NCBI RefSeq assembly: GCF_026410255.1
Contig: NZ_JAPMLL010000012.1
Span: 1-64,000 of the forward strand
DNA length: 64,000 bases
Source of the DNA: Xanthomarina sp. F1114
GTDB taxonomy: Bacteria > Bacteroidota > Bacteroidia > Flavobacteriales > Flavobacteriaceae
Direction: 5' to 3'
The notes under the pieces are model-generated. The model saw nothing but the letters and a program-made list of their open reading frames with translations. It searched no databases and was not told where the DNA came from. The translations under genes and the position numbers were made by a program. This document shows positions 3,245 to 47,929 of this stretch, in pieces. How positions within the stretch are numbered: position 1 is the first letter of the stretch; each line of letters starts with the position of its first letter.

Positions 3245-3276
3245 TCTGGAAAAAAACTATTTTGTATGAGTCTCTT

Positions 3277-5847
3277 ATGAAAAGAAAACTCCTTCTATTG
3301 CTTTTTTGTATTGGAAATTTTGCTTTTTCGCAGAGTTTAGAAGAAACTATTTATTCTACTACCGAAAAATTTATCGCAAATAAAAGTTTACAAACCCTTG
3401 ACGTTTTAAGTGAAAAGGAAATTGCTTTTAAAAATCAGATTACAACAAAAGACGAACAACTAGCTTTTGTCTTCTTGCTCTGCAACAAAGCTTTTTATTT
3501 AAAAGATTTAAATAGGTTTAATCCAGCCATAAAATCTTATGAAACCGCCTGGACATATTATAATGAAAATGAGCTTGCCAAAATTTCTGATTATGATATT
3601 ATTGAATTTTGCTTAAAACCTCTAGGAAACCTATACACGAAAACCAACAATTATACAGATGCCGAAAATACCATAAAGCAGTATCTATCTATAGCAAAAA
3701 AAAGAGAAGACCAGACTCAATATATTGCTGGTATAATCAATCTGGCTGTACTTTATCAAACCCGAGGGATGCATCAATCGGTGGTAGATTTAATAAATAA
3801 AAACCTTGATATTTCAAAAATTGACCCTAAGCAACAAGACAAGTTAAACACACTTAAAGCTTCTAGTTTAATTGCTTTAAATAAACCAAAAAATTCCGAT
3901 TTAGAAAACAACATTGTCTTTCACGACTCCAAAAACCAATACAACAGATACCAATTGGAATACGAGTTGGCTTTAAAAAGTGGCGATTATATGTCGGCTT
4001 TAAAGCATTTTAATAAGTCTTTATTGTTTCAGAAAAGTGACTCTCTTTCCAAAAGAGAAATCGCTAAAAATCATCTACAAAAAGGACAATTAGCATATTT
4101 ACTTCAGGATTTTGAAAAAGCCAATACAAACTTACAACTTGCTTTACAGATTTTACTTCCTAATTTAAAAGGAGAATCTATTCCTGAGAAAACAACATTA
4201 TACGCAGAAAATACGTTTATAGATATTTTTGATTTACTAGCCAGACTTCAAGTAAACCCTGAAAAAGCACTTAAATATTACAATTTAAGCTTTTATGTAT
4301 CAGACTTATTAACTGAAAATCTCACATCTCAAGAGTCGAAAATTGCCAATCAAACAAATAATAGAAACAGATCTGAATACTGCATAGAACTACTTTTTAA
4401 AAGCTATCAAAAAAACTCAGACACAGCAATATTTACTTCTGCTTTAACTTATGCAGAAACATATAAAGCATCTATTTTAAAAGACGTTTTCAAGAAGAAA
4501 TCCTTGCTACAACAACATCCAAAAGATAGTTTATTAATTAAAGAACAGAAACTACTTAAGCAACAAGAGCAGATTACAGATATACTAATAAAAACACAAC
4601 TAGGTTATAAAACTTCAACAAACGACAGTCTTAACAAACAACTTTTAAACCTTAGTATTGACTTAAAAAAGCTTCATTCTTACATTGATGCCAAATATCC
4701 TCAAACTAAAAACCATCTGGATATTATAAAAATTCAAAAACAGCTTCAAGCAGACAAAGCAAATCTGGCTGTATATTTTTATGGGAAACACGCTATCTAT
4801 CTGTTTATCATTTCAGAAAAAAACACAGAGTTCTTAAAAATAGAATTGACAGACAGTTTTAAAAACGACATAACTAGCTTTATTCATTTATTTGATACTC
4901 CTTCAGCAATCAACAATAATATTAAAGAGTATACAAGTCAAGCTTATAACTTGTACCAACTGCTGAAAGTAGAAAAAGTATCAAATTCTAAAAACCTTAT
5001 TATTATTCCTGACGGTTTATTAAATTTTATTCCCTTTGAAGCTTTATTAACTAAAAACATTGAAAGCAGTAATTTTTCGAAAATGCCATTTTTGGTAAAA
5101 CAACAAACTTTGGCCTACAACTCCAGTATTGAGTTTTATTTACAAGCAAAGACCGCATCAAAAACCACGAACCTTTTAGGTGTTTTTCCTGTGTTTGAAA
5201 ACAGTAATCAAATGCTTCGCTATTCTGTAGATGAAGCTCAAGCTATAAAGGCTGAAACTCACGGAAATGTTTTAATGCATGCCGAAGCTAGCAAACAGAA
5301 TTTTATTGATTCTGTTTCAAAATACGATATTTTGCACCTTTCTACACATGCTACAGGAGGCGACTTCGTAAACCCAGCAAGTTTAGCTTTTTATGATGAA
5401 CCTATGCTGTTAAATGAATTATACAGTTTAAACATAAATCCAGAGCTGGTTGTTTTAAGTGCTTGTGAAACCGGAATTGGCAAACTACAAAAAGGTGAAG
5501 GTGCAATGAGTATTGCCCGAGGTTTTCAATATGCTGGCGCAAAAAACCTTTTGTATTCTTTATGGCAAATAAACGATGCCTCTACTGCCCGACTAATGAC
5601 ATTGTTTTATAAAAACTACCTAAAAACTAATTCAGCTTTTATAGCCAACAGACAATCTAAACTTAACTATCTAAATGATAAATCTATAAGTAATATAAAG
5701 AAGTCGCCTTACTATTGGAGTGCTTTTGTTTATTATGGAGAAGTAGTTCATGAAACTAGTTCGAAGTTATTTTTATATTATTCCCTTGGAGCATTAGCAG
5801 CATTAATTATTGTATTTTTATACTTTAGAAAAAAAAACGCACAATGA
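3277..5847 (+). CDS. TPR-CHAT family cysteine protease (paralogue 1)
   Basis: The product is 856 aa when started at the ATG at 3277, which begins a signal peptide (MKRKLLLLLFCIGNFAFSQ); an upstream in-frame start at 3232 lies inside the previous gene. Residues of about 20-420 are helical TPR-like repeats. A coiled-coil-like linker follows, and the C-terminal CHAT (caspase HetF associated with TPRs) domain covers about 530-830. The expected catalytic dyad is present: His691 in LHLSTHATGG and Cys730 in LSACETG. A membrane helix (YYSLGALAALIIVFLYF) and a short basic tail end the protein. I infer a periplasmic protease anchored in the inner membrane by its C-terminus. Its stop overlaps the start of the retropepsin gene by 4 bp, so the two are translationally coupled. 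Substrate unknown. Confidence 0.88.
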   Translation: MKRKLLLLLFCIGNFAFSQSLEETIYSTTEKFIANKSLQTLDVLSEKEIAFKNQITTKDEQLAFVFLLCNKAFYLKDLNRFNPAIKSYETAWTYYNENELAKISDYDIIEFCLKPLGNLYTKTNNYTDAENTIKQYLSIAKKREDQTQYIAGIINLAVLYQTRGMHQSVVDLINKNLDISKIDPKQQDKLNTLKASSLIALNKPKNSDLENNIVFHDSKNQYNRYQLEYELALKSGDYMSALKHFNKSLLFQKSDSLSKREIAKNHLQKGQLAYLLQDFEKANTNLQLALQILLPNLKGESIPEKTTLYAENTFIDIFDLLARLQVNPEKALKYYNLSFYVSDLLTENLTSQESKIANQTNNRNRSEYCIELLFKSYQKNSDTAIFTSALTYAETYKASILKDVFKKKSLLQQHPKDSLLIKEQKLLKQQEQITDILIKTQLGYKTSTNDSLNKQLLNLSIDLKKLHSYIDAKYPQTKNHLDIIKIQKQLQADKANLAVYFYGKHAIYLFIISEKNTEFLKIELTDSFKNDITSFIHLFDTPSAINNNIKEYTSQAYNLYQLLKVEKVSNSKNLIIIPDGLLNFIPFEALLTKNIESSNFSKMPFLVKQQTLAYNSSIEFYLQAKTASKTTNLLGVFPVFENSNQMLRYSVDEAQAIKAETHGNVLMHAEASKQNFIDSVSKYDILHLSTHATGGDFVNPASLAFYDEPMLLNELYSLNINPELVVLSACETGIGKLQKGEGAMSIARGFQYAGAKNLLYSLWQINDASTARLMTLFYKNYLKTNSAFIANRQSKLNYLNDKSISNIKKSPYYWSAFVYYGEVVHETSSKLFLYYSLGALAALIIVFLYFRKKNAQ

Positions 5848-6299
5848 CTACAATTGAAGATTTAAGTCTAAAGGATTTTCTTTTAGAAAAAGGATACACA
5901 AAAATTAAATTGAAACTTACCAAAACGAATCACTTTGAAATAAAAGCCACAATTAACGGTATTAAAGGTCTTTTTATTTTAGATACTGGCGCATCTAGTT
6001 CTTGTGTAGGATTTGATGCTGTTGAAACTTTTAAATTAAAAGCAAAAGATTCTGAAATAAAAGCTGCTGGAGCTGGAGCTGTAGATATGCTTACTCAAAT
6101 TTCTAAAAAAAATAAAATTAAAATAGGGAAATGGAAAAAAGACAAGATAGCTCTTATTTTATTTAACTTAAGTCACGTAAATACAGCTTTACTTACCCAT
6201 AATGCGCAACCTGTTGACGGTATTATTGGTGCTGACATTTTAAAAAAAGGAAAAGGTATTATTGATTACGACAAGAAGTACTTGTACCTTAAACTATAA
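5844..6299 (+). CDS. Retropepsin-like (clan AA) aspartic protease
   Basis: This 151-aa protein carries the aspartic protease signature FILDTGASSS with catalytic Asp47, and the later hydrophobic-Gly motif DGIIGADIL at about 127-135, as in bacterial retropepsin-like proteins that act as homodimers. There is no signal peptide or membrane helix, so it should be cytoplasmic, whereas the CHAT protein upstream appears to be periplasmic with only a short basic tail inside. The ATGA overlap with the CHAT stop implies coupled translation and a functional link. The substrate is unknown; possible targets are the CHAT tail or the nearby response regulator, but nothing in the sequence decides this. Confidence 0.85.
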   Translation: MTTIEDLSLKDFLLEKGYTKIKLKLTKTNHFEIKATINGIKGLFILDTGASSSCVGFDAVETFKLKAKDSEIKAAGAGAVDMLTQISKKNKIKIGKWKKDKIALILFNLSHVNTALLTHNAQPVDGIIGADILKKGKGIIDYDKKYLYLKL

Positions 6300-6319
6300 G
6301 TTTCATTTTTTATTTATTT

Positions 6320-6327
6320 TAATTTTG
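6320..6327 (+). promoter_or_regulatory. -7 box of the response-regulator gene
   Basis: TAATTTTG matches the Bacteroidota -7 consensus TAnnTTTG and lies 31 bp before the ATG at 6359. No TTG is found at the usual -33 distance, so an activator or read-through from the CHAT operon may also contribute. Confidence 0.4.
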
Positions 6328-6358
6328 TTAAATTCAAGTTCTAATTAATTAATAACTC

Positions 6359-6985
6359 ATGCAAGCTTCCATAATAATAGCAGACGATCATCCCTTAATA
6401 TTAAAGGGTCTAAACGACTTTTTATTGGAGAAAGAATACAATGTATTGGCAAGTGCTGTTAATGGCAAAGAAGCTTTTGAGCTTATAAAAAATCACAAAC
6501 CAGAAATTGCTATTTTAGATATACAAATGCCTTTTCTTACAGGCTTAGAGATTGCCGAACAGTGTAAAGAGCTTAACTACGCCACAAAAATTATACTTAT
6601 TACTTTTGAAAAAGATGAAGCTATCTATAAACAGGCCAAATCTTTAAACATTTATGGCTATGTTTTAAAAGAATTTGCTTTAGCCGAAATTGAACATTGT
6701 ATTGATGCAGTAACAAAAGACATCCCTTATTTTAGCGAAGAATTGCTTTCCTACTTGGAGGTTGAGGAAGCTCCAGAAGAAATTGACTCTCTTACGCCAA
6801 CAGAAATAGATGTTTTAAAACATATTTCTGATAATAAGACGGCAAAAGAGATTGGGGAGTTAATGTTTATTTCTTTTAGAACAGTAGAAAAGCATAAAAG
6901 TAATATTAACAAAAAACTGAATCTAGCTCCTACAAAATACAGCTTATTGTTTTGGGCAAAAGAGAATAAGAACCATTTAAAGTGA
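6359..6985 (+). CDS. NarL/LuxR-family response regulator
   Basis: This 208-aa two-component regulator has an N-terminal receiver (about 1-120) with acidic pocket D9/D10, phospho-acceptor Asp54 in AILDIQMP, the Thr of ILITF and the Lys of VLKEF. A C-terminal LuxR-type helix-turn-helix follows at about 143-205 (LTPTEIDVLKHISDNKTAKEI and FRTVEKHKSNI). No histidine kinase gene is adjacent, so its partner is encoded elsewhere. It lies 59 bp after the retropepsin gene on the same strand. A perfect 18-bp palindrome begins 4 bp after its stop codon and another lies 300 bp further on; such two-fold sites fit a LuxR-type dimer, so I infer that this regulator controls the small transcripts proposed downstream. 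Confidence 0.92.
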   Translation: MQASIIIADDHPLILKGLNDFLLEKEYNVLASAVNGKEAFELIKNHKPEIAILDIQMPFLTGLEIAEQCKELNYATKIILITFEKDEAIYKQAKSLNIYGYVLKEFALAEIEHCIDAVTKDIPYFSEELLSYLEVEEAPEEIDSLTPTEIDVLKHISDNKTAKEIGELMFISFRTVEKHKSNINKKLNLAPTKYSLLFWAKENKNHLK

Positions 6986-6988
6986 AAT

Positions 6989-7006
6989 ATACGTAGTACT
7001 ACGTAT
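6989..7006. promoter_or_regulatory. 18-bp perfect palindrome, putative response-regulator operator A
   Basis: ATACGTAGTACTACGTAT is its own reverse complement over all 18 bases. It sits 4 bp after the response-regulator stop and 10 bp before conserved core element A. Its centre lies about 43 bp upstream of the transcription start proposed at 7041, the usual spacing for an activator that overlaps the upstream promoter box. Assignment to the adjacent LuxR-type regulator is inferred from proximity and dyad symmetry. Confidence 0.6.
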
Positions 7007-7016
7007 TGTTTGACGT

Positions 7017-7050
7017 GCTAATAATTGCGATATTTGTTTTGCTATTAATT
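7017..7050 (+). promoter_or_regulatory. Conserved core element A (activator-dependent promoter and 5' end)
   Basis: GCTAATAATTGCGATATTTG (7017-7036), four bases, then GCTATTAATT (7041-7050). The same string with one change per block occurs at 7324-7357, and a shorter version lies on the minus strand at 45013-45035. GATATTTG resembles a Bacteroidota -7 box (TAnnTTTG) with a poor first base, as expected for a promoter that needs an activator. There is no TTG box at the normal distance. Confidence 0.5.
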
Positions 7051-7115
7051 AGTTCTTAGGGAGAATTATGAAAGCTCTAAATAGTTTTAAATTATTTAGG
7101 GCTTTCTTCATTTAT
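7041..7115 (+). ncRNA. Candidate small RNA A, ending in a hairpin
   Basis: The proposed transcript starts near the conserved GCTATTAAT and ends after a strong hairpin. Its 14-bp stem pairs 7070-7083 with 7093-7106 (13 Watson-Crick pairs and one G-U) around a 9-nt loop, followed by the T-rich TTCATTTAT. A 20-codon reading frame starts at 7068, but its start codon touches the hairpin arm and it has no counterpart in copy B, so I favour a non-coding RNA. The promoter-operator arrangement upstream is repeated at copies B and C. Confidence 0.4.
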
Positions 7116-7295: not shown

Positions 7296-7313
7296 ATACG
7301 TATTAATACGTAT
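7296..7313. promoter_or_regulatory. 18-bp perfect palindrome, putative response-regulator operator B
   Basis: ATACGTATTAATACGTAT is a perfect dyad of the same length as operator A and shares the outer ATACGTA/TACGTAT arms. It lies exactly 10 bp before core element B, the same spacing as in copy A. Only the central four bases differ (GTAC in A, TTAA in B), and they remain palindromic, which suggests selection for dyad symmetry. Confidence 0.6.
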
Positions 7314-7323
7314 AGGTTAACTA

Positions 7324-7357
7324 GCTAATAATTCCGATATTTGACTAGCTATTAATC
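7324..7357 (+). promoter_or_regulatory. Conserved core element B
   Basis: GCTAATAATTCCGATATTTG, four bases, then GCTATTAATC. It differs from core A at one base in each block while the linkers around it have diverged, so the blocks appear constrained. It has the same -7-like GATATTTG and the same distance to the upstream palindrome. Confidence 0.5.
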
Positions 7358-7424
7358 AATTATCTTTTAAGGGAAAACCTATAATAACTCTGTGTAACAT
7401 GAAACACAGGGTTATATTTCCTTT
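7348..7424 (+). ncRNA. Candidate small RNA B, ending in a hairpin
   Basis: The proposed transcript begins at GCTATTAATC and runs through a purine-rich AAGGGAAAA to a 12-bp hairpin. The arms are 7384-7395 and 7404-7415 (one G-U pair, 8-nt loop), followed by ATTTCCTTT. The stem sequence is unlike that of copy A, yet both stems have CTCT on the 5' arm facing AGGG on the 3' arm, each with a G-U pair. Only an 11-codon frame is present, so it is unlikely to be coding. Confidence 0.4.
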
Positions 7425-7463
7425 AAAAATTTAAAGTGCACCTAAATCTAAAATTTTTAAACC

Positions 7464-7565
7464 ATGGACAACGAATCCGAAACTGTCAATAAAGTTTTTA
7501 TCATTGGGCTGGTTATTATTGTTGTAACCGTAATTTCAATGAACGTACTTGTTAACTTCATTTAA
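7464..7565 (+). CDS. Small single-span membrane protein (33 aa)
   Basis: A 33-residue frame starts MDNESETVNK and continues into a clean hydrophobic segment (VFIIGLVIIVVTVISMNVLV) before the stop. The layout of an acidic-polar N-terminus and one helix fits a small inner-membrane protein. There is no clear ribosome-binding site, which is normal for Bacteroidota. It lies downstream of candidate small RNA B and could be expressed by read-through. I do not recognise a family; coding status rests on composition and frame only. Confidence 0.5.
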   Translation: MDNESETVNKVFIIGLVIIVVTVISMNVLVNFI

Positions 7566-7635: not shown

Positions 7636-8862
7636 TTATAGTTCTAAAGCCCTTTTAACATCGTTATTCATTAATAATTCTGTTGGATTTTCTAAAGCTT
7701 CTTTTACTGCAACTAAAAACCCTACTGATTCTTTACCGTCAATAATTCTATGGTCGTAAGATAAAGCCACAAACATAATTGGTCTAATCTCCACTTTTCC
7801 ATCTACAGCTACTGGACGCTCTACAATATTATGCATTCCTAAAATACCACTTTGTGGAGGGTTAATAATTGGAGTAGATAACATACTTCCAAAAACTCCC
7901 CCATTAGAAATAGTAAAGGTTCCACCTGTCATTTCATCTACAGTAATCTGACCGTCTCTAGCGCGAATAGCTAAACGTTTTACTTCAGATTCAACTCCTC
8001 TAAAGCTTAAGTTTTCGGTGTTTCTCATTACTGGTACCATTAATCCTTTTGGTCCAGAAACCGCAATTGAAATATCTACAAAATCGTAAGAAATCATTTC
8101 GTTTCCATCTATCATTGAGTTTACTGCAGGATACATTTTTAAAGCTCGAACAACAGCTAAAGTAAAGAAAGACATAAATCCTAAACCTACACCGTGCTTG
8201 TTTTTAAAAGTTTCTTTATACTCGTTACGCAAAGCAAAGATTGGTGACATATCAACTTCGTTAAACGTAGTTAACATAGCAGATGTATTTTTAGCTTCTA
8301 CTAAACGTTCTGCCACTTTACGACGTAACATAGACATTCTACTTCTGGAAGATCCTCTGTTCCCTCCTGTAGGCGTTCCCATAGAAGGTACGGCTTGCAC
8401 AGCATCTTCTTTAGTAACACGGCCATCTTTTCCAGTTCCAGAGATACTTGAAGCTTCGATACCTTTTTCTGCTAAAATCTTTTTAGCAGCAGGACTTGCT
8501 GTTCCAGTTGCATAGGTTTTAGCTTCTGCAGCTGGTTTTTCTTCTTTTTTAGGAGCCTCTTCCTTTTTAGAAGCCTCCTCTTTTGCTTCTTTCTTAGCAG
8601 GAGCAGAATCTCCTTCTGGCTTAGAAGCACTTGTATCAATTAAACAAACAACAGCTCCAACCGCAACAGCATCACCTTCTTCAGCTTTAAGTGTAATAAT
8701 TCCACTAGCTTCAGCTGGTAATTCTAATGTAGCTTTGTCGCTATCTACCTCAGCAATAGCTTGGTCTTTCTCTATATAATCTCCATCTTGCACTAACCAA
8801 GTTGCTATTTCTACTTCTGTAATTGACTCTCCTGGTGAAGGAACTTTCATTTCTAAAATCAT
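7636..8862 (-). CDS. sucB: 2-oxoglutarate dehydrogenase E2 (dihydrolipoyl succinyltransferase)
   Basis: This 408-aa E2 subunit transfers the succinyl group from lipoate to CoA in the TCA cycle. The N-terminal lipoyl domain (1-75) has the modified Lys43 in [10 protein letters not shown] Lys/Glu/Ala-rich linker (about 80-115) leads to the peripheral subunit-binding domain (about 117-155, [13 protein letters not shown] and [11 protein letters not shown]). The catalytic domain ends with the acyltransferase motif [12 protein letters not shown] (His371, Asp375). The length fits the succinyl type with a single lipoyl domain. It lies on the same strand as sucA, but an M23 peptidase gene stands between them. 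The 204-bp gap before its start could hold its own promoter. Confidence 0.96.
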
Positions 8863-18170: not shown

Positions 18171-21100
18171 ATGACTAAGAAAAAGAAAAAACAAGTCGAA
18201 AAAGAATTTGGTTTAGCATCATGGGCTATCAACAACAAAACCACCATGTATGTTCTTATTCTGGTAATGTTTTACTTAGGTGTAGCTGCTTTTTTCCATA
18301 TGCCTCGCGAAAGCTTCCCAGAAGTAAACGAAACCAAAATATACGTAAGTTCTATCTATCCTGGAAACACAGCCGAGGATGTTGAAAAATTAATTACGGA
18401 TCCTTTAGAAGACGAGCTTAAAACAGTAAGTAACGTTGTAGAAATAACCTCAACTTCTCAAGAAGATTTCTCCATGATTATTGTGGAATTCGATGAGCAC
18501 CTTACTGTAGAGCAAGCTAAACAGAAAGTAAAGGATGAAATAGACACCAAAACGGCTGGAGAAGACTGGCCAATGTCTAATGGTGCAAAAGTAAAACCCG
18601 ATGTATTCGAGTTGAGTTTATCGGAAGAAATGCCCATTTTAAATATTAATATTTCTGGAGATTACCCAGTTGAAAAACTTAAGGAATACGGAGAATATCT
18701 TCAAGATGAAATTGAAGATCTATTAGAAATTAAAAAAGTAGATATTCGTGGAGCTCAAGATAAAGAGGTAGAAGTTGCTGTAGACATTTATAAAATGATG
18801 GCTGCAGAGGTAACTTTTAACGATATCTTAAACGCCATTAACAACGGAAACGTTACTATGTCTGCCGGAAACTTAATAGCCAGTGGACAACGTAGAAACA
18901 TTCGTATTTTAGGCGAAATAGAATCGCCTGAAGAACTTAGAAACTTTGTTGTAAAAGCCGAAAAAGGTCATGCTATTTATTTAAAAGACGTGGCCACCGT
19001 TACTTTTCATGAAGAGGATAAAACCACTTTTGCTCGCGAATTTGGTGAACCAGTAGTCATGCTGGACGTTAAAAAACGTGCTGGAAAAAACATGGTTGCT
19101 GCAGCAGAACAAACACAAAAAATTGTACAAGAAGCCATTGACAATGTATTTCCTCAAGACTTAAAAGTTACAATTGCCAACGACCAATCTTCTGTAACCA
19201 TTGCACAAGTAGACGATTTAGTAAACAATATTATTTTTGGAGTTATTCTTGTTGTAACTGTTTTAATGTTCTTTCTAGGCTTTAGAAACGCCATATTTGT
19301 TGGGTTTGCAATCCCAATGTCTATGTTTATGTCGCTAATGATATTAGATGCCTTAGGCCAAAGTTTAAATACCATGGTTCTTTTTGGTTTAATTATGGGA
19401 CTTGGAATGCTGGTAGACAACGGAATTGTGGTTGTAGAAAACGTCTATCGTCTTATGGACGAGGAAGGCATGAGTCGTCTAGCAGCTGCCAAAATGGGAA
19501 TTGGCGAAATTGCATTTCCTATTATAATTTCAACGGCTACAACGGTTGCCGCCTTTATTCCTTTAGGTCTATGGCCAGGTATTATGGGAGAGTTTATGAT
19601 GGTTCTACCCATTACCCTTTCCATAGTTTTAGGCTCCTCCTTATTTGTTGCTGTTTTCTTTAATTCTGTATTGGTATCTCAATTTATGGAAACAGAAGAC
19701 AAAGACATGCCTTTAAATAAAATTATTAGAAACTCTTCTATAATAGCCGTAATAGGTATTCTTATATTTATTTTTGGCGGCGATTACCGTGGACTTGGTT
19801 CCTTAATGGTTTTTACTGCTATCATGCTGTGGGTTTACAGATTGTTTTTACGTAAATGGGCCAATAGCTTTCAAACAAAAACACTTGTTAAATTAGAACG
19901 CTGGTACGAAGGTCAGTTACGCTGGGCTCTATCTTCTTGGCGACCTTATGTTTTAACTATTGGAACTTTTCTTTTACTAATAGCTGCATTTGTTGCTTTT
20001 GGAATTTCACTTAGTACACAACGTACTAAAGTGGAGTTTTTTCCAGATAACAAACCCAACCAGATTATTGTTTATATTGAATATCCGCAAGGTACTGCCA
20101 TTGAGAAAACAAATGCCATTACAAAAGAAATTGAAAAAATTGTTTATAGTGTTATAAACGATAATCAGTATAAAGATGGCGATTATAATTTTATGGTAGA
20201 AAGCGCTGTATCGCAAGTTGGTGAAGGTGCAGGAAACCCACGAGCAGATAGTGGATCCTCGGCTGAGATGCCACATAAAGCAAAAATTACCGCCTCCATG
20301 CGCGAGTATAAATATCGTCGTGGGGAAGACAGTGAATTATTGCGTCAAAAAGTACAGCAATCTTTAGTAGGTGTTTTTCCCGGAATTCTAATTTCTGTTG
20401 AAAAAGATGAAAATGGCCCCCCAGCAGGTTCTCCTATTAATATTGAAATTGAAGGAGACGATTACGACGAGCTAATTAGAACAGCCGAAAATATGCGTGA
20501 ATTCATTAATAACAAGAATATTCCTGGTATTGATGAACTTAAAATTGATGTTAACAAAGATAAACCATCCATGAGAGTGGTTGTTGACAGAGAAAAAGCT
20601 GGAGAATTAGGAATTAGCGCTGCGCAAGTAGGACAACAATTAAGAAATTCTATTTTCGGATCTAAAGCTGGAATTTATAAAGAAGATGGAGACGACTTTG
20701 ATATTTATGTGCGTTTTAACGAAGAGAACCGTTATAATACCAGTGCCCTTTTTAATCAAAACATCACTTTTAGAGACAATACTGGACAGATAAAAAGCGT
20801 TCCAGTTTCGGCAGTAACCAGGCATGAAAACACCTCTGGTTTTAGTGCTATTAAACACAAAAACACGAGCCGTATTGTTACTGTTTATTCGGCATTATCT
20901 CCTGGATTTATTGATGCAGGTGCCATTATAGCGCAAATTCAAAATGAAATGAAAAGCTATAAAGGTATTTCTAAAAACATAAAAGTAGATTATACGGGAC
21001 AAATTGAAGAACAACAAAAGCAACAAGACTTTTTAAACGGCGCTTTATTAACTGGTTTAGGGTTAATATTCTTCATCTTAATATTTCAATTTAACTCCAT

Positions 21101-21674
21101 TTCAAAACCGGCCATTATTATGCTGGCTATCTTTTTAAGTTTTATTGGGGTTTTTGGTGGAATTGTAATCACCGGAAGTTCTTTTGTAATTATGATGACT
21201 ATGGTTGGTATTATTTCGTTGGCAGGAATTGTAGTAAATAATGGGGTGGTTCTCCTCGATTATGGTGAATTACTTATCGGCCGAAAAAAGCAAGAATTAG
21301 GTGTAGATAGCGATACATATTTAGAAGAAAAAGATTTATATGAAACCATTGTACGCGCCGGAAAAGCGCGTTTACGACCGGTTTTATTAACAGCTATAAC
21401 AACCATTCTTGGTTTAGTTCCGTTAGCTATTGGGTTAAACATTAATTTCTTTTCGTTTTTTAAAGAATTTGATGCCGATATTTATATGGGTGGAGATAAC
21501 GTTGTTTTTTGGGGTCCATTAGCCTGGACAGTAATTTACGGGTTAATTGTAGCTACATTTTTAACTTTAATTATTGTACCCGTGTTATTTTTCTTAATAA
21601 CTAAATTTAAAATGTGGTTGCGTAGCAAAACCAGAAAAGAACCACAACTTGAAACCCTAGAAGAACAAAACTAA
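18171..21674 (+). CDS. RND efflux transporter permease (AcrB/HAE1 type)
   Basis: This 1167-aa inner-membrane proton-driven pump has the twelve-helix, two-fold RND layout. Helix 1 lies in NNKTTMYVLILVMFYLG, followed by the first porter domain (PRESFPEVNETKIYVSSIYP). Helix 4 contains GLGMLVDNGIVVVENVYRL, where the usual Asp-Asp proton-relay pair is Asp-Asn; one Asp is kept. The second half repeats the pattern, with SLAGIVVNNGVVLLDYGELL in helix 10 and a C-terminal helix 12. It is longer than AcrB (about 1049 aa) through cytoplasmic and periplasmic insertions such as the segment before helix 7 and that near residue 1040. It is the last gene of the efflux operon and is followed by a terminator. 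Substrates are unknown. Confidence 0.94.
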   Translation: MTKKKKKQVEKEFGLASWAINNKTTMYVLILVMFYLGVAAFFHMPRESFPEVNETKIYVSSIYPGNTAEDVEKLITDPLEDELKTVSNVVEITSTSQEDFSMIIVEFDEHLTVEQAKQKVKDEIDTKTAGEDWPMSNGAKVKPDVFELSLSEEMPILNINISGDYPVEKLKEYGEYLQDEIEDLLEIKKVDIRGAQDKEVEVAVDIYKMMAAEVTFNDILNAINNGNVTMSAGNLIASGQRRNIRILGEIESPEELRNFVVKAEKGHAIYLKDVATVTFHEEDKTTFAREFGEPVVMLDVKKRAGKNMVAAAEQTQKIVQEAIDNVFPQDLKVTIANDQSSVTIAQVDDLVNNIIFGVILVVTVLMFFLGFRNAIFVGFAIPMSMFMSLMILDALGQSLNTMVLFGLIMGLGMLVDNGIVVVENVYRLMDEEGMSRLAAAKMGIGEIAFPIIISTATTVAAFIPLGLWPGIMGEFMMVLPITLSIVLGSSLFVAVFFNSVLVSQFMETEDKDMPLNKIIRNSSIIAVIGILIFIFGGDYRGLGSLMVFTAIMLWVYRLFLRKWANSFQTKTLVKLERWYEGQLRWALSSWRPYVLTIGTFLLLIAAFVAFGISLSTQRTKVEFFPDNKPNQIIVYIEYPQGTAIEKTNAITKEIEKIVYSVINDNQYKDGDYNFMVESAVSQVGEGAGNPRADSGSSAEMPHKAKITASMREYKYRRGEDSELLRQKVQQSLVGVFPGILISVEKDENGPPAGSPINIEIEGDDYDELIRTAENMREFINNKNIPGIDELKIDVNKDKPSMRVVVDREKAGELGISAAQVGQQLRNSIFGSKAGIYKEDGDDFDIYVRFNEENRYNTSALFNQNITFRDNTGQIKSVPVSAVTRHENTSGFSAIKHKNTSRIVTVYSALSPGFIDAGAIIAQIQNEMKSYKGISKNIKVDYTGQIEEQQKQQDFLNGALLTGLGLIFFILIFQFNSISKPAIIMLAIFLSFIGVFGGIVITGSSFVIMMTMVGIISLAGIVVNNGVVLLDYGELLIGRKKQELGVDSDTYLEEKDLYETIVRAGKARLRPVLLTAITTILGLVPLAIGLNINFFSFFKEFDADIYMGGDNVVFWGPLAWTVIYGLIVATFLTLIIVPVLFFLITKFKMWLRSKTRKEPQLETLEEQN

Positions 21675-21730
21675 AAATTGTTATCATTTAAATTATTGCT
21701 TTCCCTAAGCAGTAATTAATAGCGGGAAAA

Positions 21731-42370: not shown

Positions 42371-44674
42371 ATGGAAAATATATATCTCTTAATGATTGTT
42401 GCTTTAGCTGTTCTAGCTATTGCCGATTTAGTAATTGGAGTTAGCAATGACGCTGTAAACTTTTTAAACTCTGCCATTGGCTCTAAAGCTATCTCGTTTA
42501 AAACCATTATGATTGTTGCTAGTATAGGAGTAGCCATTGGTGCTGTTTTCTCAAGCGGAATGATGGAAGTTGCCAGAAAAGGGATTTTTAATCCACATGA
42601 ATTTATGTTCAATGAAATCATGATTATTTTTATGGCTGTCATGATTACAGACATCTTATTACTAGATTTTTTCAACACTGTTGGAATGCCAACTTCAACT
42701 ACGGTTTCCATTGTATTTGAGCTTCTAGGAGCATCTGTAGCTATGGCCTTAATAAAAGTTGCCCATGACGGAGGTGGTTTATCAGATGCTATTAATTATA
42801 TAAACACGTCCAAAGCTACAGAAATCATCTTCGGAATCCTCCTCTCTGTCGTCGTCGCCTTTACTGTTGGAGCCATAGTCCAATGGGTTGCAAGACTTCT
42901 ATTGTCTTATAATTTTGAAAAGAAAGCCAATTGGGTTGGAGCTCTATTTGGAGGAATTGCACTAACGTCTATTACTTATTTCATATTTATAAAAGGTTTA
43001 AACGGTACCTCTCTTGCATCTCAAAAATTTGGATTTTTAGGCAATACCTCTTTAGATTACTATATAGAGTCTCATGTTCTATTAATAGTTAGTCTTAGTT
43101 TAACTTTCTGGATTTTGTTATCTTACCTCCTAATAGCTATTTTTAAAACAAATATCTATAAACTCATTATTTTAGTTGGAACCTTTGCTCTAGCCTTAGC
43201 ATTTGCTGGTAACGATTTAGTTAACTTTATTGGAGTACCTATTGCCGGTTGGATATCTTATTCTACTTGGGCGGCATCTGGAATTCCTGCAGATGCATTT
43301 AGCATGGGCTTTCTAGCAGATAAAGTACCAACTCCTACCTTCTTGTTAGTGGGAGCAGGACTTATAATGGTGGCAACTTTATGGTTTTCAAGTAAGGCTA
43401 AAGCTGTGGTTAAAACCTCTTTAGACCTATCTAGTCAAGAAGAAACAAAAGAACGTTTTCAACCTAATTTCTTATCTCGAGGTTTTGTACGTTTTGCCAT
43501 TTTAGGATCGCAAATGTCTTCTTATATTCTACCGGAATCCTGGCAAGTAAAAATTGAAAAGCAATTTGAGAAACCGGTAATTCCATTAAAAAAAGATAAG
43601 ACATACGAGCTACCTGCTTTCGATTTGGTACGTGCAGCCGTAAATTTAATGGTTGCAGCTGTTCTAATTTCTATTGCAACCTCTATGAAACTGCCTTTAT
43701 CTACCACTTACGTAACATTTATGGTTGCCATGGGAACCTCTTTAGCAGATAGAGCCTGGGGTGCAGAAAGTGCTGTTTATAGAGTAGCCGGGGTGCTAAA
43801 CGTTATAGGAGGCTGGTTCTTTACGGCTTTTATTGCCTTTATATCTGCTGCTATTATTGCTTATTTCCTTAATTGGAACGTTAAAGTTATGGTTCCTATA
43901 TTTTTATTAATAGCTACTTTTCTTTTAGTTAGAAGCTATATAGCACATAAAAAGAAAACTCAAGAAACTAAAGAAGAAGATAGTTTAACCCGTGCTGAAA
44001 GCAGTTCTGTTCAAGGGGTTATTCACGAAAGTGCAGGTAATATTGCTAATGTTATTAAACGTGGAAATAGAATTTATACCAATGCCATTAATGGTTTAGC
44101 TAAGCAAGATTTAACTCTACTTAAAAAGAATAAAAAGCAAGTAGTAAAACTATCTAACGAAATAGATGAGCTTAGAGATCATATTTTCTATTTTATAAAG
44201 AATTTAGACGAGTCTAGTGTTGGAGCAAGTAGTTTTTACATTAATATATTAGGTTACTTGCAAGACATTGCACAATCTTTAGAATACATTTCAAAAGTGA
44301 GTCATAAACACGTAAATAACAATCATAAAAAACTTAAGTTCAGTCAGATAAAAGAGTTAAAAGAAGTGGATGAGCGTTTTGAAAGGTTGTTTGAAAACAC
44401 AAGACACGCGTTTGAATCTGGTTCTTTTGAAGAAATAGGTCTTATATTAAACAGAAAGAAAGAGATTGTAACTTTAGTATCAACTAAAATACATAAGCAA
44501 GTAGAGCGTACTAGAACAGAAGAGTCTAGTCCGAAGAATACTACTTTGTACTTCAGTCTTCTATTAGAAACAAAAGATTTATTAGCAGCTATTATGAATT
44601 TATTAGAAGAGTACCACAGTGCTTTTGATAGTTCTATTACACCAGCAAAAATTCCAGATGAACCAATAGAATAA
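42371..44674 (+). CDS. PiT-family inorganic phosphate transporter fused to a PhoU-like domain
   Basis: This 767-aa low-affinity phosphate transporter has the two PiT signature repeats: LVIGVSNDAVNFLNSAIGSK near the N-terminus and FAGNDLVNFIGVPIAG at about residue 277, plus STTYVTFMVAMGTSLADRAW in the second half. About twelve membrane helices extend to residue 535. The C-terminal region (about 555-760) is soluble, helical and charged, like DUF47/PhoU proteins, which are usually encoded by a separate gene next to pit. The fusion suggests in-cis control of the permease. It is followed by a terminator. Confidence 0.9.
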   Translation: MENIYLLMIVALAVLAIADLVIGVSNDAVNFLNSAIGSKAISFKTIMIVASIGVAIGAVFSSGMMEVARKGIFNPHEFMFNEIMIIFMAVMITDILLLDFFNTVGMPTSTTVSIVFELLGASVAMALIKVAHDGGGLSDAINYINTSKATEIIFGILLSVVVAFTVGAIVQWVARLLLSYNFEKKANWVGALFGGIALTSITYFIFIKGLNGTSLASQKFGFLGNTSLDYYIESHVLLIVSLSLTFWILLSYLLIAIFKTNIYKLIILVGTFALALAFAGNDLVNFIGVPIAGWISYSTWAASGIPADAFSMGFLADKVPTPTFLLVGAGLIMVATLWFSSKAKAVVKTSLDLSSQEETKERFQPNFLSRGFVRFAILGSQMSSYILPESWQVKIEKQFEKPVIPLKKDKTYELPAFDLVRAAVNLMVAAVLISIATSMKLPLSTTYVTFMVAMGTSLADRAWGAESAVYRVAGVLNVIGGWFFTAFIAFISAAIIAYFLNWNVKVMVPIFLLIATFLLVRSYIAHKKKTQETKEEDSLTRAESSSVQGVIHESAGNIANVIKRGNRIYTNAINGLAKQDLTLLKKNKKQVVKLSNEIDELRDHIFYFIKNLDESSVGASSFYINILGYLQDIAQSLEYISKVSHKHVNNNHKKLKFSQIKELKEVDERFERLFENTRHAFESGSFEEIGLILNRKKEIVTLVSTKIHKQVERTRTEESSPKNTTLYFSLLLETKDLLAAIMNLLEEYHSAFDSSITPAKIPDEPIE

Positions 44675-44743: not shown

Positions 44744-44937
44744 TATAACACTTAATAATAAAGAGTTAAAGTTTATACAGCAAGCAACTGCTTTCACTAA
44801 TTTAACTCAGACAATCCAAACTTTTGTATTTATTTAAAAGAATAAAATCATACACCTGAATAGTACATTTTAAAACGAATTTTATAACGCTCCTACTATA
44901 ATATAATTTACTAAAGTAGACCTTAAAACAAGTCATA

Positions 44938-45021
44938 AAAAAAACCAGTTTTCACTGGTTTTTTTAAATCGATTAATAGCAACCATCTATAAAATGAAAT
45001 GCTTATCCCTTAATTAATAGC
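44938..45021 (-). ncRNA. Candidate small RNA C, divergent from the LytTR operon
   Basis: On the minus strand, the proposed start is at GCTATTAATTA (45021-45011), followed by AGGG as in copies A and B. The transcript would end at the hairpin CCAGTGAAAACTGG (44959-44946) followed by a long T-run, a strong terminator. The length would be about 85 nt. No reading frame of useful length is present. The LytTR operators lie directly upstream of its core promoter. Confidence 0.45.
44941..44965. terminator. Bidirectional hairpin terminator of small RNA C
   Basis: The stem AAAACCAGT/ACTGGTTTT has a 4-nt loop and T-runs on both strands. On the plus strand no gene ends within 200 bp upstream other than the PiT gene, which has its own terminator, so its main user is probably the minus-strand transcript. 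Confidence 0.8.
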
Positions 45022-45035
45022 ATGTCAAATATCGC
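45013..45035 (-). promoter_or_regulatory. Conserved core element C
   Basis: Read on the minus strand: GCGATATTTG (45035-45026), four bases, GCTATTAAT (45021-45013). This is identical to copy A in both blocks and has the same spacing. The upstream GCTAATAATT part of copies A and B is absent, being replaced by GTTTTTTT. The element therefore comprises a -7-like GATATTTG plus a conserved transcript 5' end. Confidence 0.5.
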
Positions 45036-45062: not shown

Positions 45063-45096
45063 TGTATAGTTGGTACTAAAAACTGTATAGTTGGTA
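45063..45096 (+). promoter_or_regulatory. LytTR operator: two direct repeats 21 bp apart
   Basis: TGTATAGTTGGTA occurs at 45063-45075 and again at 45084-45096. The core ATAGTTGGT fits the published LytTR consensus [TA][AC][CA]GTTN[AG][TG] at all but one position, and a 9-bp repeat with 12 bp between copies is the standard LytTR arrangement. It lies 28 bp upstream of core C on the minus strand and 106-139 bp upstream of the LytTR regulator gene. Confidence 0.75.
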
Positions 45097-45201: not shown

Positions 45202-45936
45202 ATGATAAAAGCAGTAATTGTTGACGACGAGCCAAAAGCCATTAAAAGTTTGACTTGGGAATTAGGTAATTTTAACAATGAGATTCAAATTGTTGAAACT
45301 TTCACAAGTCCTGAAAAGGCTATCGCTTATTTAAAAATTCATACTCCAGATTGTCTTTTTTTAGATATTAATATGCCTACTATGGATGGGTTTCAGTTTT
45401 TAGATTGCATAAATCATAAAGACTATGCAGTTATTATTACAACTGCTTATAATGAATATGCTTTAAAAGCCCTAAAAAACGAAGCTATAGATTACCTCTT
45501 AAAACCAATAGATTCAGACGATTTAGAAGAAACCATAAAAAAAATAAAAAAATTCCATTCCAATAATTTCTCTATTTCAAAAGTTGAAGAAGTACTCTTA
45601 AACTTTAATGCCAATCTAAAACACCAAAAAATTATTTTAAACACAGATGGTAAACTAGTGTTTTTAAATATAGACGATATCCTATATGTAGAATCTGATG
45701 GTAATTACAGTACGTTTTTTATGACTTCAAATCAAAAAATGGTTGTGACCAAAAAAATTAAAGAGATTGATGCTATTCTGCCGGAAAGTTCTTTTTTTAG
45801 AATTCATAACTCCTATATTATTAACCTAAATAAAATAAAAGAGTTTGTAAAAAGTGAAGCTTATGTTCTTATGGAATCCAACAAAAAAATTCCAGTAGCA
45901 AGACAAAGAAAAACAGACTTCCTAAACAAACTCTAG
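45202..45936 (+). CDS. LytTR-family response regulator
   Basis: This 244-aa regulator has a receiver (about 1-120) with acidic residues D8/D9, phospho-acceptor Asp55 in CLFLDINMP, and the TTAYNEYALKALKNEAIDYL segment with conserved switch residues. A C-terminal LytTR DNA-binding domain follows (about 145-244, GKLVFLNIDDILYVESDGNY, FFRIHNSYIINLNKI). The kinase gene begins 4 bp downstream. Matching LytTR operators lie upstream in the same intergenic region, between it and the divergent small RNA C, so I infer that it controls both directions. Confidence 0.95.
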   Translation: MIKAVIVDDEPKAIKSLTWELGNFNNEIQIVETFTSPEKAIAYLKIHTPDCLFLDINMPTMDGFQFLDCINHKDYAVIITTAYNEYALKALKNEAIDYLLKPIDSDDLEETIKKIKKFHSNNFSISKVEEVLLNFNANLKHQKIILNTDGKLVFLNIDDILYVESDGNYSTFFMTSNQKMVVTKKIKEIDAILPESSFFRIHNSYIINLNKIKEFVKSEAYVLMESNKKIPVARQRKTDFLNKL

Positions 45937-45940
45937 TAAA

Positions 45941-47929
45941 ATGAAATGGTTTCTAAACAGTAGTAATTTTGCTTTTACATCTAAATACATTCTTTATTTT
46001 TTTGTAATAAGCTTCTTTTTATCTCCTCTAATTAGTCGAGCACAAATTAATTTAGATGATAATTATAAAATTCTTGTAGATCGTGTTGTAGAAAGTAAAG
46101 CAACAAATTATCAATATTTAGATTCTGTTTTTAGTGAGTTTTCTGCAGACACGCTAAAAATGAATTATCTTTTAAGAGTATCTAAACAAGCTCATTTTAT
46201 AAAAGGCGAAAGTTATGCACTTAATATGCTAGGAGAGTTTTACAGAAATACAACTAATTACGACAAAGCTATAAGCTTTCATGAAAAAGCCTTAGAAAAA
46301 GCAAAAAAAGCAGAAAGTATAGATTTAGAAGTTACAAGCTTAAACATGTTGGGGGTAGTTTACAGAAGATTAGATGTTATAAGAACAGCCTTGGACTACC
46401 ATAAAGAAGCTTTGGATTTAGCCGAAACAGTCAAGCCAATAACGCCATCGCTTAAGCACAGTATTGCAATTTCTCAAAATAGTATGGGAAATATTTATTT
46501 AGCTTTAAAACAATATGATATGGCTTTAGGCCTGTTTAAAAAATCCTTAGTTATAGAACAAGCATTAAACAATAAATTAGGCTTGGCCATTAACTATCAC
46601 AATATTGGTTATGCGCAAGAAGCAAAAGGCTTATTGGACGAGGCATTAAAAAACTATCAAACTTCTTTAAAATATAATAACGAAATAGACTCTGATATAG
46701 GTCGCGTTATTTGCTACAACAGTATTGCAAAATTAGATATTGCCAAAGGCAGATATGAAACGGCACTTCCCATAATTGAAACAGCCTTAGAGAAAGCTAA
46801 AGTAATTAACGATAAATATTATATTTCCACATCTTATTCTAATCTAGGATTAATTCAATTAAAAATGCAAAACTATAAGGCTTCTGAGAAAAACTTGAGG
46901 GAAGCTTTAAGAATTGCAAAAACATACCAATTAAAATCGCAAGAGGCAGAAACTTACAATCACTTGTCGCAATTAGAAGAGAACTTAGGTAATTATAAAA
47001 CTTCACTACTTTTTTATAAGCAACATGTGGACTTAGATAAAGCTATTACTGGCGAAAAGAATTTCCAATATGTTACCGATTTAATTTTAAAATATGAAAG
47101 TGAGAAAAAAAACAATCAAATTAAGGCGCTTGCCAGCGAAAATGAAATTGTAAAACTTAAACTCTCACAAAATAGAAGAATCTTAATACTGAGTTTAATT
47201 GGAGCGATTTTACTAATTGGAATATTTATTATTCTTCAAAGACAAGGACAGTTAAAAAACGAAAAAAAGATTGTAACTCTGGAGCAAGAAATGTTAAGAA
47301 ATCAGATGAATCCTCATTTCATCTTTAATTCTTTAAACTCCATCAAATTATTTATAATAAACAATGAAAAAGAAAATGCAGTTTATTATTTAAATAAATT
47401 CTCGAAACTTATTAGAAAAATACTTATTGCTTCCACAGAAAAAGAGATCAGCTTGCAAGATGAATTAGACACCATGGCTTTATATATGAATATTGAAAAC
47501 ATGCGTTTTTCTAATGAGATTAATTATCAAGTACATGTAGATACAAATGTAAATACTTCCGTAATTAGAGTTCCTTCTTTAATTCTTCAGCCTTTTTTAG
47601 AAAATGCACTGTGGCATGGGCTATCTTCAAAAGCTAGTGATAAGCAAATTGAATTAAATGTTAATCAAGACTCTTTAGACTATATTTCTATTGCCATAAT
47701 TGATAACGGAGTAGGACGTATTGTTTCGCAAAAACTAAAAGAAAAGAGAAAACTAAATCGGAAATCAGTAGGAATTGATATTACAAAGGCTCGATTAGCC
47801 AATTTCTCAAAAAGTTTTATAAACGATTATAAAATAGAGATTGAAGACCTATATGAAAATGGCAAGGCCTGTGGAACCAAGGTTATGGTTCATATTCCTA
47901 TAAAAAGAGCAGTCTTAAAAACAGCTTAA
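45941..47929 (+). CDS. TPR-containing sensor histidine kinase (LytS/YehU-type His_kinase)
   Basis: This 662-aa kinase has a signal peptide or N-terminal helix (about 14-36), a periplasmic region of about six TPR units (about 75-370, for example NYDKAISFHEKALEKAKKAE, GLAINYHNIGYAQEAKGLLD), a short coiled coil and a single membrane helix (about 408-428, RILILSLIGAILLIGIFIIL). The cytoplasmic part has the His_kinase motif MNPHFIFNSLNSIK with the phospho-acceptor His459, and an ATPase domain with ENALWHGL and IDNGVGR. It is the partner of the LytTR regulator upstream. TPR input suggests sensing of a protein or peptide in the periplasm. Confidence 0.94.
   Translation: MKWFLNSSNFAFTSKYILYFFVISFFLSPLISRAQINLDDNYKILVDRVVESKATNYQYLDSVFSEFSADTLKMNYLLRVSKQAHFIKGESYALNMLGEFYRNTTNYDKAISFHEKALEKAKKAESIDLEVTSLNMLGVVYRRLDVIRTALDYHKEALDLAETVKPITPSLKHSIAISQNSMGNIYLALKQYDMALGLFKKSLVIEQALNNKLGLAINYHNIGYAQEAKGLLDEALKNYQTSLKYNNEIDSDIGRVICYNSIAKLDIAKGRYETALPIIETALEKAKVINDKYYISTSYSNLGLIQLKMQNYKASEKNLREALRIAKTYQLKSQEAETYNHLSQLEENLGNYKTSLLFYKQHVDLDKAITGEKNFQYVTDLILKYESEKKNNQIKALASENEIVKLKLSQNRRILILSLIGAILLIGIFIILQRQGQLKNEKKIVTLEQEMLRNQMNPHFIFNSLNSIKLFIINNEKENAVYYLNKFSKLIRKILIASTEKEISLQDELDTMALYMNIENMRFSNEINYQVHVDTNVNTSVIRVPSLILQPFLENALWHGLSSKASDKQIELNVNQDSLDYISIAIIDNGVGRIVSQKLKEKRKLNRKSVGIDITKARLANFSKSFINDYKIEIEDLYENGKACGTKVMVHIPIKRAVLKTA

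Follow-up and report, generated by a model that had tools for sequence, protein, structure and literature searches.

A predicted small RNA gene beside a LytTR regulator and its probable relatives beside other regulators in the Flavobacteriaceae

Bacterial small RNAs that occur as several sibling copies are already well known: FopS, Rsm, the CsrB copies, and LhrC are of this kind. In Bacteroides thetaiotaomicron, a member of the Bacteroidota, FopS/GibS are described as multi-copy small RNAs that share a conserved 5' portion and end in an intrinsic terminator (PMC11697453). The Gac/Rsm system of Pseudomonas (RsmX/Y/Z), as described, combines a response regulator and a palindromic upstream site with several redundant small RNAs that carry GGA-type motifs (PMC2375449). 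According to the description of sibling CsrB RNAs in Vibrio tasmaniensis, their differential regulation integrates different inputs (PMC6262261), and LhrC of Listeria is reported as a multicopy sRNA under the two-component system LisRK (PMC4132741). The closest example by taxonomy is Rfp18 from Flavobacterium psychrophilum, a conserved sRNA of the same bacterial family that is reported to affect protease mRNAs (PMC9723704); we compared it by its description only. The RNAs that we predict here share several of these features: multiple copies, a conserved 5' portion, an intrinsic terminator, and GGA-type motifs. Control by a response regulator from a palindromic site, and the integration of different inputs, would be further likenesses.

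The window that we analysed is a stretch of 64,000 nucleotides from Xanthomarina sp. F1114 (contig NZ_JAPMLL010000012.1). The first-pass annotation had proposed that a small RNA core, already present as copies A and B, recurs as copy C on the minus strand upstream of a LytTR operon, with a terminator behind it and with LytTR-type repeats in place of an 18-bp palindrome, and that all three copies share their promoter and 5' end. We found each of these elements (see the table). The 23-mer GCGATATTTG-N4-GCTATTAAT is exact in C, at 45013-45035 (-), and in A, at 7027-7049 (+), and a version with one mismatch, CCGATATTTG, lies at 7334-7356 (+) in B. Units A (7041+), B (7348+), and C (45021-) all read GATATTTG-N4-GCTATTAAT, and in C, N4 separates the -7 box from the start of the RNA. 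From 45021, the minus-strand RNA C would read GCTATTAATTAAGGG; its 3' end is ACCAGTGAAAACTGGT and a run of T, with the terminator ending near 44937 (fold z -2.76). The adjacent operon consists of the REC-LytTR regulator followed by the TPR histidine kinase.

Copies A and B lie in tandem behind a LuxR-type response regulator, and both of their 18-bp palindromes are perfect. (GacA is also a LuxR-type regulator with an 18-bp box.) The distance from the operator down to the start is fixed in units A, B, and C, and behind each start come a segment with GGG and a terminator. Windows that were shuffled contained 0.04 copies on average (up to 3 mismatches) and none reached 3, so the count of three in the window is not due to chance. 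Other genera also have two operator-bearing copies per locus (e.g., L031, L234, L266, and L279). The next gene of at least 90 amino acids behind A and B (7636-8862) is convergent. Two neighbors of these copies are worth recording. At 3232-6985, a TPR-CHAT protein, a retropepsin-like protease, and the LuxR-type regulator are encoded consecutively, and this group is kept beside RNAs A and B in several relatives. Also, RNA B is followed, before the E2 gene and in the same sense, by a 33-amino-acid ORF at 7464-7565 (+) that probably encodes a membrane helix.

Table. Features of the window discussed in the text (positions in nucleotides from the start of the window).
Feature	Position	Strand	Details
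Small RNA C, predicted, ~85 nt	44937..45021	-	inferred start G45021 to end of terminator T run
-7 promoter box of C, GATATTTG	45026..45033	-	TAnnTTTG with T at -12 replaced
Shared 5' motif of C, GCTATTAAT	45013..45021	-	sequence
Predicted LytTR operator of C: two ACCAACTATAC repeats, 21 bp apart	45064..45095	-	starts at -74
Second GCTATTAAT (GCTATTAATCGA) inside RNA C	44972..44980	-	immediately upstream of terminator
LytTR response regulator gene, divergent from C	45202..45936	+	Pfam Response_reg and LytTR
TPR histidine kinase gene, presumed partner of LytTR regulator	45941..47929	+	Pfam TPR_12 and His_kinase
LuxR-type response regulator gene, directly upstream of A/B	6359..6985	+	Pfam Response_reg and GerE
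LuxR-type operator of A, ATACGTAGTACTACGTAT, 18-bp palindrome	6989..7006	+	16-bp core at -51
Small RNA A, predicted	7041..7110	+	GCTATTAATTA, hairpin with AGGG at loop, terminator hairpin; fold z -4.61
LuxR-type operator of B, ATACGTATTAATACGTAT, 18-bp palindrome	7296..7313	+	sequence
Small RNA B, predicted, tandem with A	7348..7425	+	fold z -4.64
Candidate target or sponge site, TCCCTAAGCAGTAATTAATAGC	21702..21723	+	3' UTR of AcrB-family gene (18171-21674); complementarity to RNA A over 11 + 8 nt

We searched the whole source genome (3.25 Mb in 56 contigs) for the 23-mer with up to 3 mismatches and found 9 matches; the reversed pattern had 4. Four of the nine matches are small-RNA units, namely A, B, C, and a fourth unit, D (L005), which lies 62 nt behind a PAS-LuxR gene and before a co-directional lpd gene. 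Two are the 5' ends of mRNAs (L004 and L008). The others are L009, which is intergenic, contains GCTATTAAT, and has a terminator-like hairpin behind it; L006, which is intergenic; and L007, which is within a reading frame and looks like a chance match. L009 resembles units from two relatives (L184 from G004 and L188 from G003), with similar upstream sequence in the three species.

The genome also encodes two weaker members, so that several short, terminator-ended predicted units share sequence (A, B, C, D, L134, and L143). In L134, five bases separate TTTG from the G. This unit stands behind an atypical response-regulator-like gene (DUF5932 passes the cut-off and Response_reg does not) and behind what looks, by eye, like a gene for a histidine kinase. 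In L143, no -7 box is clear; the gene for a LytTR response regulator lies about 425 nt upstream. The family members stand with operators or hairpins and not at random sites, as the first-pass annotation had expected; its expectation does not extend to every occurrence, as the core is also found on some mRNAs and other RNAs without a recognised operator. Another locus of the source genome, L135, is beside an AlbA_2/DUF5929 gene with no regulator adjoining. It belongs to a conserved AlbA_2/DUF5929-linked small RNA with the same 5' end and no regulator next to it (L010, L105, L106, L109, L113, L135, and L096). One of these, L096, has LytTR-like repeats upstream.

To describe the distribution of the module, we scanned 84,980 GTDB species genomes, a set that may lack records of the source genome or of its nearest neighbors, with the pattern ATTTGNNNNGCTATTAATYAN{0,15}AGGG. 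Of the 43 stretches that matched, 37 look like intergenic units from Flavobacteriales, as judged by reading the sequences. The other six (L045, L053, L058, L071, L073, and L086) look like chance matches, and five of them are from outside the Flavobacteriales. Sorted by operator, the 37 units comprise 11 of the LuxR type (including L065, whose operator is degenerate, and L080, whose upstream sequence is cut and which was assigned by its RNA), 14 of the PAS-LuxR type, 6 of the LytTR type, and 6 others. A gene for the cognate regulator is adjacent in 28 of the 31 units from the three named classes. Among the misses, L061 and L080 have merely 103 and 15 nt of upstream sequence, and L065 has a family RNA and 550 nt of upstream sequence without a trace of a LuxR-type regulator.

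The six units with other operators are L044, L048, L052, L064, L074, and L078. L074 and L078 are behind an AraC-type gene, and L048 is behind another LuxR-type response regulator (Pfam was run on L074 and L048). We saw no adjacent regulator at L044, L052, or L064; by eye, L044 and L064 are near genes of the nitrate-transport or molybdenum-cofactor type. The same RNA module thus appears beside at least four types of regulators: LuxR-type response regulators, PAS-LuxR, LytTR response regulators, and AraC. For LuxR-type, PAS-LuxR, and LytTR, the predicted operator class follows the neighboring regulator gene. Two further proposals of the first-pass annotation, that the operator matches the class of the neighboring regulator and that the copies form a modular, regulator-linked RNA family, are borne out by this match, by a spacing that is specific to each class, and by searches that start from the regulator proteins (both described below).

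In an even draw of 199 genomes from the family, ATATTTGNNNNGCTATTAATYA had 33 matches in 23 genomes, which include the 5' ends of mRNAs and probably some chance matches, and the reversed pattern had 0. Separately, several relatives contain a longer repeated element that includes GCTATTAATTACGGAGGGA (L190, L191, and L198) or GCTATTAATAATTTCGGAGGGA (L183); it is present twice in G003.

We measured the spacing of each class from the first base of the operator to the G of GCTATTAAT, without requiring a -7 box, and we counted distinct sequences, including those from close species. The LuxR-type operator is within 300 nt of 36 copies; the offset is -51 in 26 distinct copies, and the remaining offsets are scattered. 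The PAS-LuxR operator is at -49 in 27 of 28 copies. LytTR repeats, recognised by a strict pattern, begin at -74 in 7 distinct class-C copies, and the other 7 offsets correspond to the second core of the same RNAs. The palindrome at a fixed -51 beside a LuxR-type regulator is a putative binding site.

A search for the LuxR-type operator followed by TTTG, which was independent of the RNA, had hits in at least 68 of the 199 genomes. Among the 150 matches listed, in which some operators were counted twice, the gap from operator to TTTG peaks at 27 nt (35 matches), with 14 at 26 nt and a mean of 4.5 matches per gap length outside 25-28 nt. Of 42 LuxR-type operator sites with gaps of 26-28 nt (40 regions examined, 52 rows listed), many precede protein genes and only 2 are followed by GCTATTAAT; two further positives, L093 and L031, were left out of the 40 regions. 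The peak at 27 nt does not depend on the RNA, so the LuxR-type operator appears to be a general activator site of the Flavobacteriaceae family, located before mRNAs as well. We also noticed the operator TACGTANNNNTACGTA at a fixed spacing before short, similar ORFs of 60-68 amino acids that probably encode a membrane helix (L271, L278, and L290).

In Flavobacterium psychrophilum, the -7 box TAnnTTTG is reported to span -12 to -5 (PMC9723704). By transferring this position from F. psychrophilum, we placed the +1 of A, B, and C at the G of GCTATTAAT. AnnTTTG is present in A, B, and C, and the T at -12 is replaced in C and in most of the operator-bearing copies. Just 3 of 35 operator-bearing copies have this T, versus 29 of the 43 copies in which no operator was recognised. 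mRNAs and chance matches belong to the latter group, as do a few units whose degenerate operator escaped recognition. The rarity of this T in the operator-bearing copies fits activator-dependent promoters. We strongly infer that transcription of the family RNAs depends on activators.

We also searched from the side of the regulators. Across 80 genomes from the family, we found 15 orthologs of the PAS-LuxR protein (at least 62% identity, nearly full length), including our own and that of one congener. The PAS-LuxR operator, with up to 2 changes, is present in all 15 of these loci, and 11 of them have an exact GCTATTAAT at 49 nt from the first base of the operator (in L307, this holds for the second copy only). 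Near variants of GCTATTAAT are found in L304, L311, and L313, and nothing similar in L314. Outside of this count were six weaker or partial matches: four without an operator, L318 with operators and no core, and L319, in which an operator precedes the same RNA body but the distance between them is shifted.

A search with the LytTR protein across 120 genomes from the family had matches in 46, and we examined the best 30 loci of these, including our own and that of one congener. The exact core is present in the divergent upstream region of 12 of these best 30 loci and is altered in L325 and L335; the other 16 have no recognisable core in that region. In other genera, the RNA typically consists of AAAGUGAUCGUGGGGAUUCACUU, then UGAUUAAAUGCUAUUAAUCA, then the terminator. 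An alignment of ten of these sequences gave a three-helix structure with 91% of the cells paired. Seven pairs have double changes, all in the terminator, and the first two helices hardly vary, so there is no covariation proof for those two. The corresponding model, R1 (built from ten LytTR RNAs, none from the window's genus), matches C at 44934-45017 with E of about 0.001 under a rough calibration. Outside of its own sequences, R1 scores best on L328, but on the opposite strand, and from E of about 0.01-0.1 its matches look like chance; the match to C therefore gives moderate support.

To characterize the module itself, we aligned 29 RNAs of the A and D type. Positions 10-27 (UARUUCUUAGGGAGAAUU) are nearly invariant and the terminator region is variable. 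The invariance of the first nine bases, GCUAUUAAU, reflects their use in choosing the copies (4 of the 29 were entered without these bases). We also surveyed the predicted folds of 61 operator-bearing copies, under a loose definition of the operator. The first nine bases are predicted to be 0.77 unpaired on average. GGG is missing from 9 of the 61 copies; in the other 52, its predicted unpaired fraction averages 0.52 and is close to 0 in type B. The exposed loop of A and D is thus not general. There was no match to Rfam at the gathering threshold in the window or in 20 loci. With a relaxed threshold, the sole match among 10 LytTR loci was L20_leader, in the RNA region of L328, at 28.8 bits versus a cut-off of 58.7 bits, and we rejected membership in a known Rfam family. 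LhrC is not known to resemble the RNAs of this family in sequence. As for small peptides, we rejected them because relatives, by eye, keep neither the ATG that follows AGGGAGAATT in A nor the short frames that overlap the second core of C.

We think it likely that C is a regulator-linked small RNA gene of the Flavobacteriaceae family, as regards both its architecture and its activation by the neighboring regulator. The RNA module that it shares with its relatives probably consists of the motif GCUAUUAAU(U/C)A, a GGG-containing element in most of the RNAs, and an intrinsic terminator, with a different activator in each class. The architecture, the matching of operators to regulators, the fixed spacing, and the recurrence were tested on the sequences themselves. 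These units are presumably transcribed in an activator-dependent manner. In the mechanism that we propose, the LytTR regulator would bind the two repeats at -74 and would bring RNA polymerase to a promoter with no T at -12 in its -7 box. The palindromes at -51 (A and B) and -49 (D) would serve LuxR-type regulators and PAS-LuxR, respectively, in the same way, and different signals would feed one pool of similar RNAs. Counting against this reading are the 16 LytTR loci without a core, the copies that lack GGG, the LuxR-type operators that stand before mRNAs, and L065 with its missing regulator. The shared motif may then titrate an RNA-binding protein; this protein would also read the motif where it occurs in mRNAs, curlin-like ones among them. 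This decoy role is the effector step and the least certain step; we tentatively favor it over base-pairing, and we would give it somewhat less than an even chance.

The mRNAs that begin with GCUAUUAAUYA include one with curlin repeats (L099, PF07012) and, by eye, L101 and L112. mRNAs for small exported proteins with the same start are among L115, L004, and L117 (the latter two from the source genome). That a curlin-repeat mRNA carries the motif in sense at its 5' end, and that complementary sites are not in excess (see below), favors a decoy over pairing. In several species, GCTATTAAT is also found in sense behind genes, directly before a terminator that contains AGGGA (L165, L170, L177, L194, and L192). 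The ends of the proteins encoded before L165, L177, L192, and L194 read, by eye, like T9SS sorting signals.

We searched for known partner proteins in 8 genomes of the genus and in 14 control genomes. CsrA (PF02599), RRM_1 (PF00076), and Hfq (PF17209) were each found in 0 of the 8, and in 3, 2, and 5 of the 14 controls, respectively. AGGGA fits the core of the CsrA site. Since we found no CsrA in the 8 genomes, we rejected a CsrA decoy; likewise, finding no RRM_1 in these genomes led us to reject a partner of the FopS/RbpB type, and finding no Hfq, Hfq-dependent base-pairing. Because none of the three proteins was found in the 8 genomes, there is no known protein partner at hand for titration, which counts against the decoy. 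With no Rfam family at threshold either, no known class fits.

The same activator-driven family might instead act by base-pairing, with the single-stranded 5' end GCUAUUAAUUA and AGGG as the seeds by which all members reach the same mRNAs, on the model of FopS/GibS. The first nine nucleotides, predicted to be mostly unpaired, and the nearly invariant positions 10-27 would suit this, and a single-stranded 5' seed with a terminator is the layout described for FopS (PMC11697453). There is also a candidate site in the window: 22 nt in the 3' UTR of an AcrB-family gene, directly before a terminator. The site is also present in the relative G004 (L195), but G004 is so close that this is weak evidence of conservation. 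Its duplexes with A and D are predicted at about -31 to -35 kcal/mol, but L150 and L152, which were selected by their seeds, reach similar energies with A or D, so the AcrB site is not strongly outstanding. More broadly, the complement of the A/D loop, TTCTCCCTAA, occurs 4 times in the genome, and 2 of these are the RNA genes themselves, versus 9 for the reversed pattern; there is no excess, and we rejected loop-complement targets because the site is rarer than its control. GCTATTAATYA has 40 sites in the source genome, 11 within reading frames and 29 intergenic (the reversed control, with 1 site, is a poor one because it contains CG), and few of the 40 are complementary to the start of a gene. 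The motif is shared in sense by mRNAs, and in the LytTR RNAs it is predicted to be partly buried in a stem, both of which argue against a seed. Base-pairing is a real possibility that we nevertheless judge to fall short of probable. We also considered pairing of the AGGGAG loop with CUCCC of the AlbA_2-linked RNA, and we dropped it because CUCCC is missing from the copy in the source genome.

It is improbable that the conserved block acts at the level of DNA, as a promoter and initially transcribed sequence that is favored by one holoenzyme, with RNAs that have no common function. A, B, D, and several mRNAs have the motif at +1 to +9, and it is strongly enriched downstream of the -7 box in the draw of 199 genomes, as this explanation would predict. 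But in other genera, the motif is internal to the LytTR-linked RNA, tens of bases below the promoter, which indicates an RNA motif and not only promoter DNA. The internal GCTATTAAT of C is the counterpart of this internal motif, and it is conserved in the relatives of C. Also, the conserved domain reaches +27 in classes A and D.

Instead of separate RNAs, the units could be cis-acting leaders or attenuators that serve the genes behind them, or they could belong to 3' UTRs; the terminator close behind the start, the lpd gene behind D, and the 33-amino-acid frame behind B would be consistent with this. We consider it very improbable, as C runs toward the 3' end of a convergent gene (42371-44674), A and B face a convergent gene as well, and class D keeps its regulator from genus to genus but not the gene downstream. 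We give almost no credence to a dispersed mobile repeat that was captured by chance near regulators: there are several copies per genome, but different genera have them at orthologous positions and with the same operator spacing, and the operator differs by class while the RNA is constant.

Returning to the decoy, a broader idea, which we regard as rather unlikely, is a post-transcriptional hub. GCUAUUAAU and a GGG-containing element would form a tag on regulator-dedicated small RNAs, on curlin mRNAs, and on other mRNAs; a protein yet to be discovered would read the tag; and the LuxR-type, PAS-LuxR, LytTR, and AraC systems would each make their own decoy. Whatever the effector, the regulator-linked family as we propose it would mean that unrelated signaling systems in a large group of marine bacteria converge because each has its own copy of an interchangeable regulatory RNA, and it would let many signals feed a single control point at the level of RNA. 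The family would offer a concrete entry into RNA-based regulation where Hfq, CsrA, and RRM_1 were not found, with the tag as bait for the partner. The pairs of operators and regulators are ready predictions of DNA sites for several LuxR-type and LytTR regulators. Among the titles and abstract openings that our searches of open-access literature brought up, none describes this RNA family, which is not proof of absence. If expression is confirmed, what would be new is one RNA module beside at least four unrelated classes of regulators, with a matching operator for three of them.

The known systems differ from this family in several ways. FopS bind the RRM protein RbpB (PMC11697453), whereas RRM_1 was not found in the window's genus. 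FopS/GibS are described with canonical promoters, and that description mentions no adjacent cognate regulator (PMC11697453); the family here has no Rfam match, and it is by description that we set it apart from FopS/GibS. For Rfp18, the account of the sRNA describes no linkage to a regulator (PMC9723704). LhrC is from another phylum, and one two-component system is named for it (PMC4132741). The CsrB copies, as described, belong to a CsrA system (PMC6262261), while the regulator classes and operators here are mutually unrelated. Unlike Gac/Rsm as described (PMC2375449), this family occurs in a genus where we found no CsrA/RsmA, it is linked to several classes of regulators instead of one, and most of its RNA genes adjoin their regulator.
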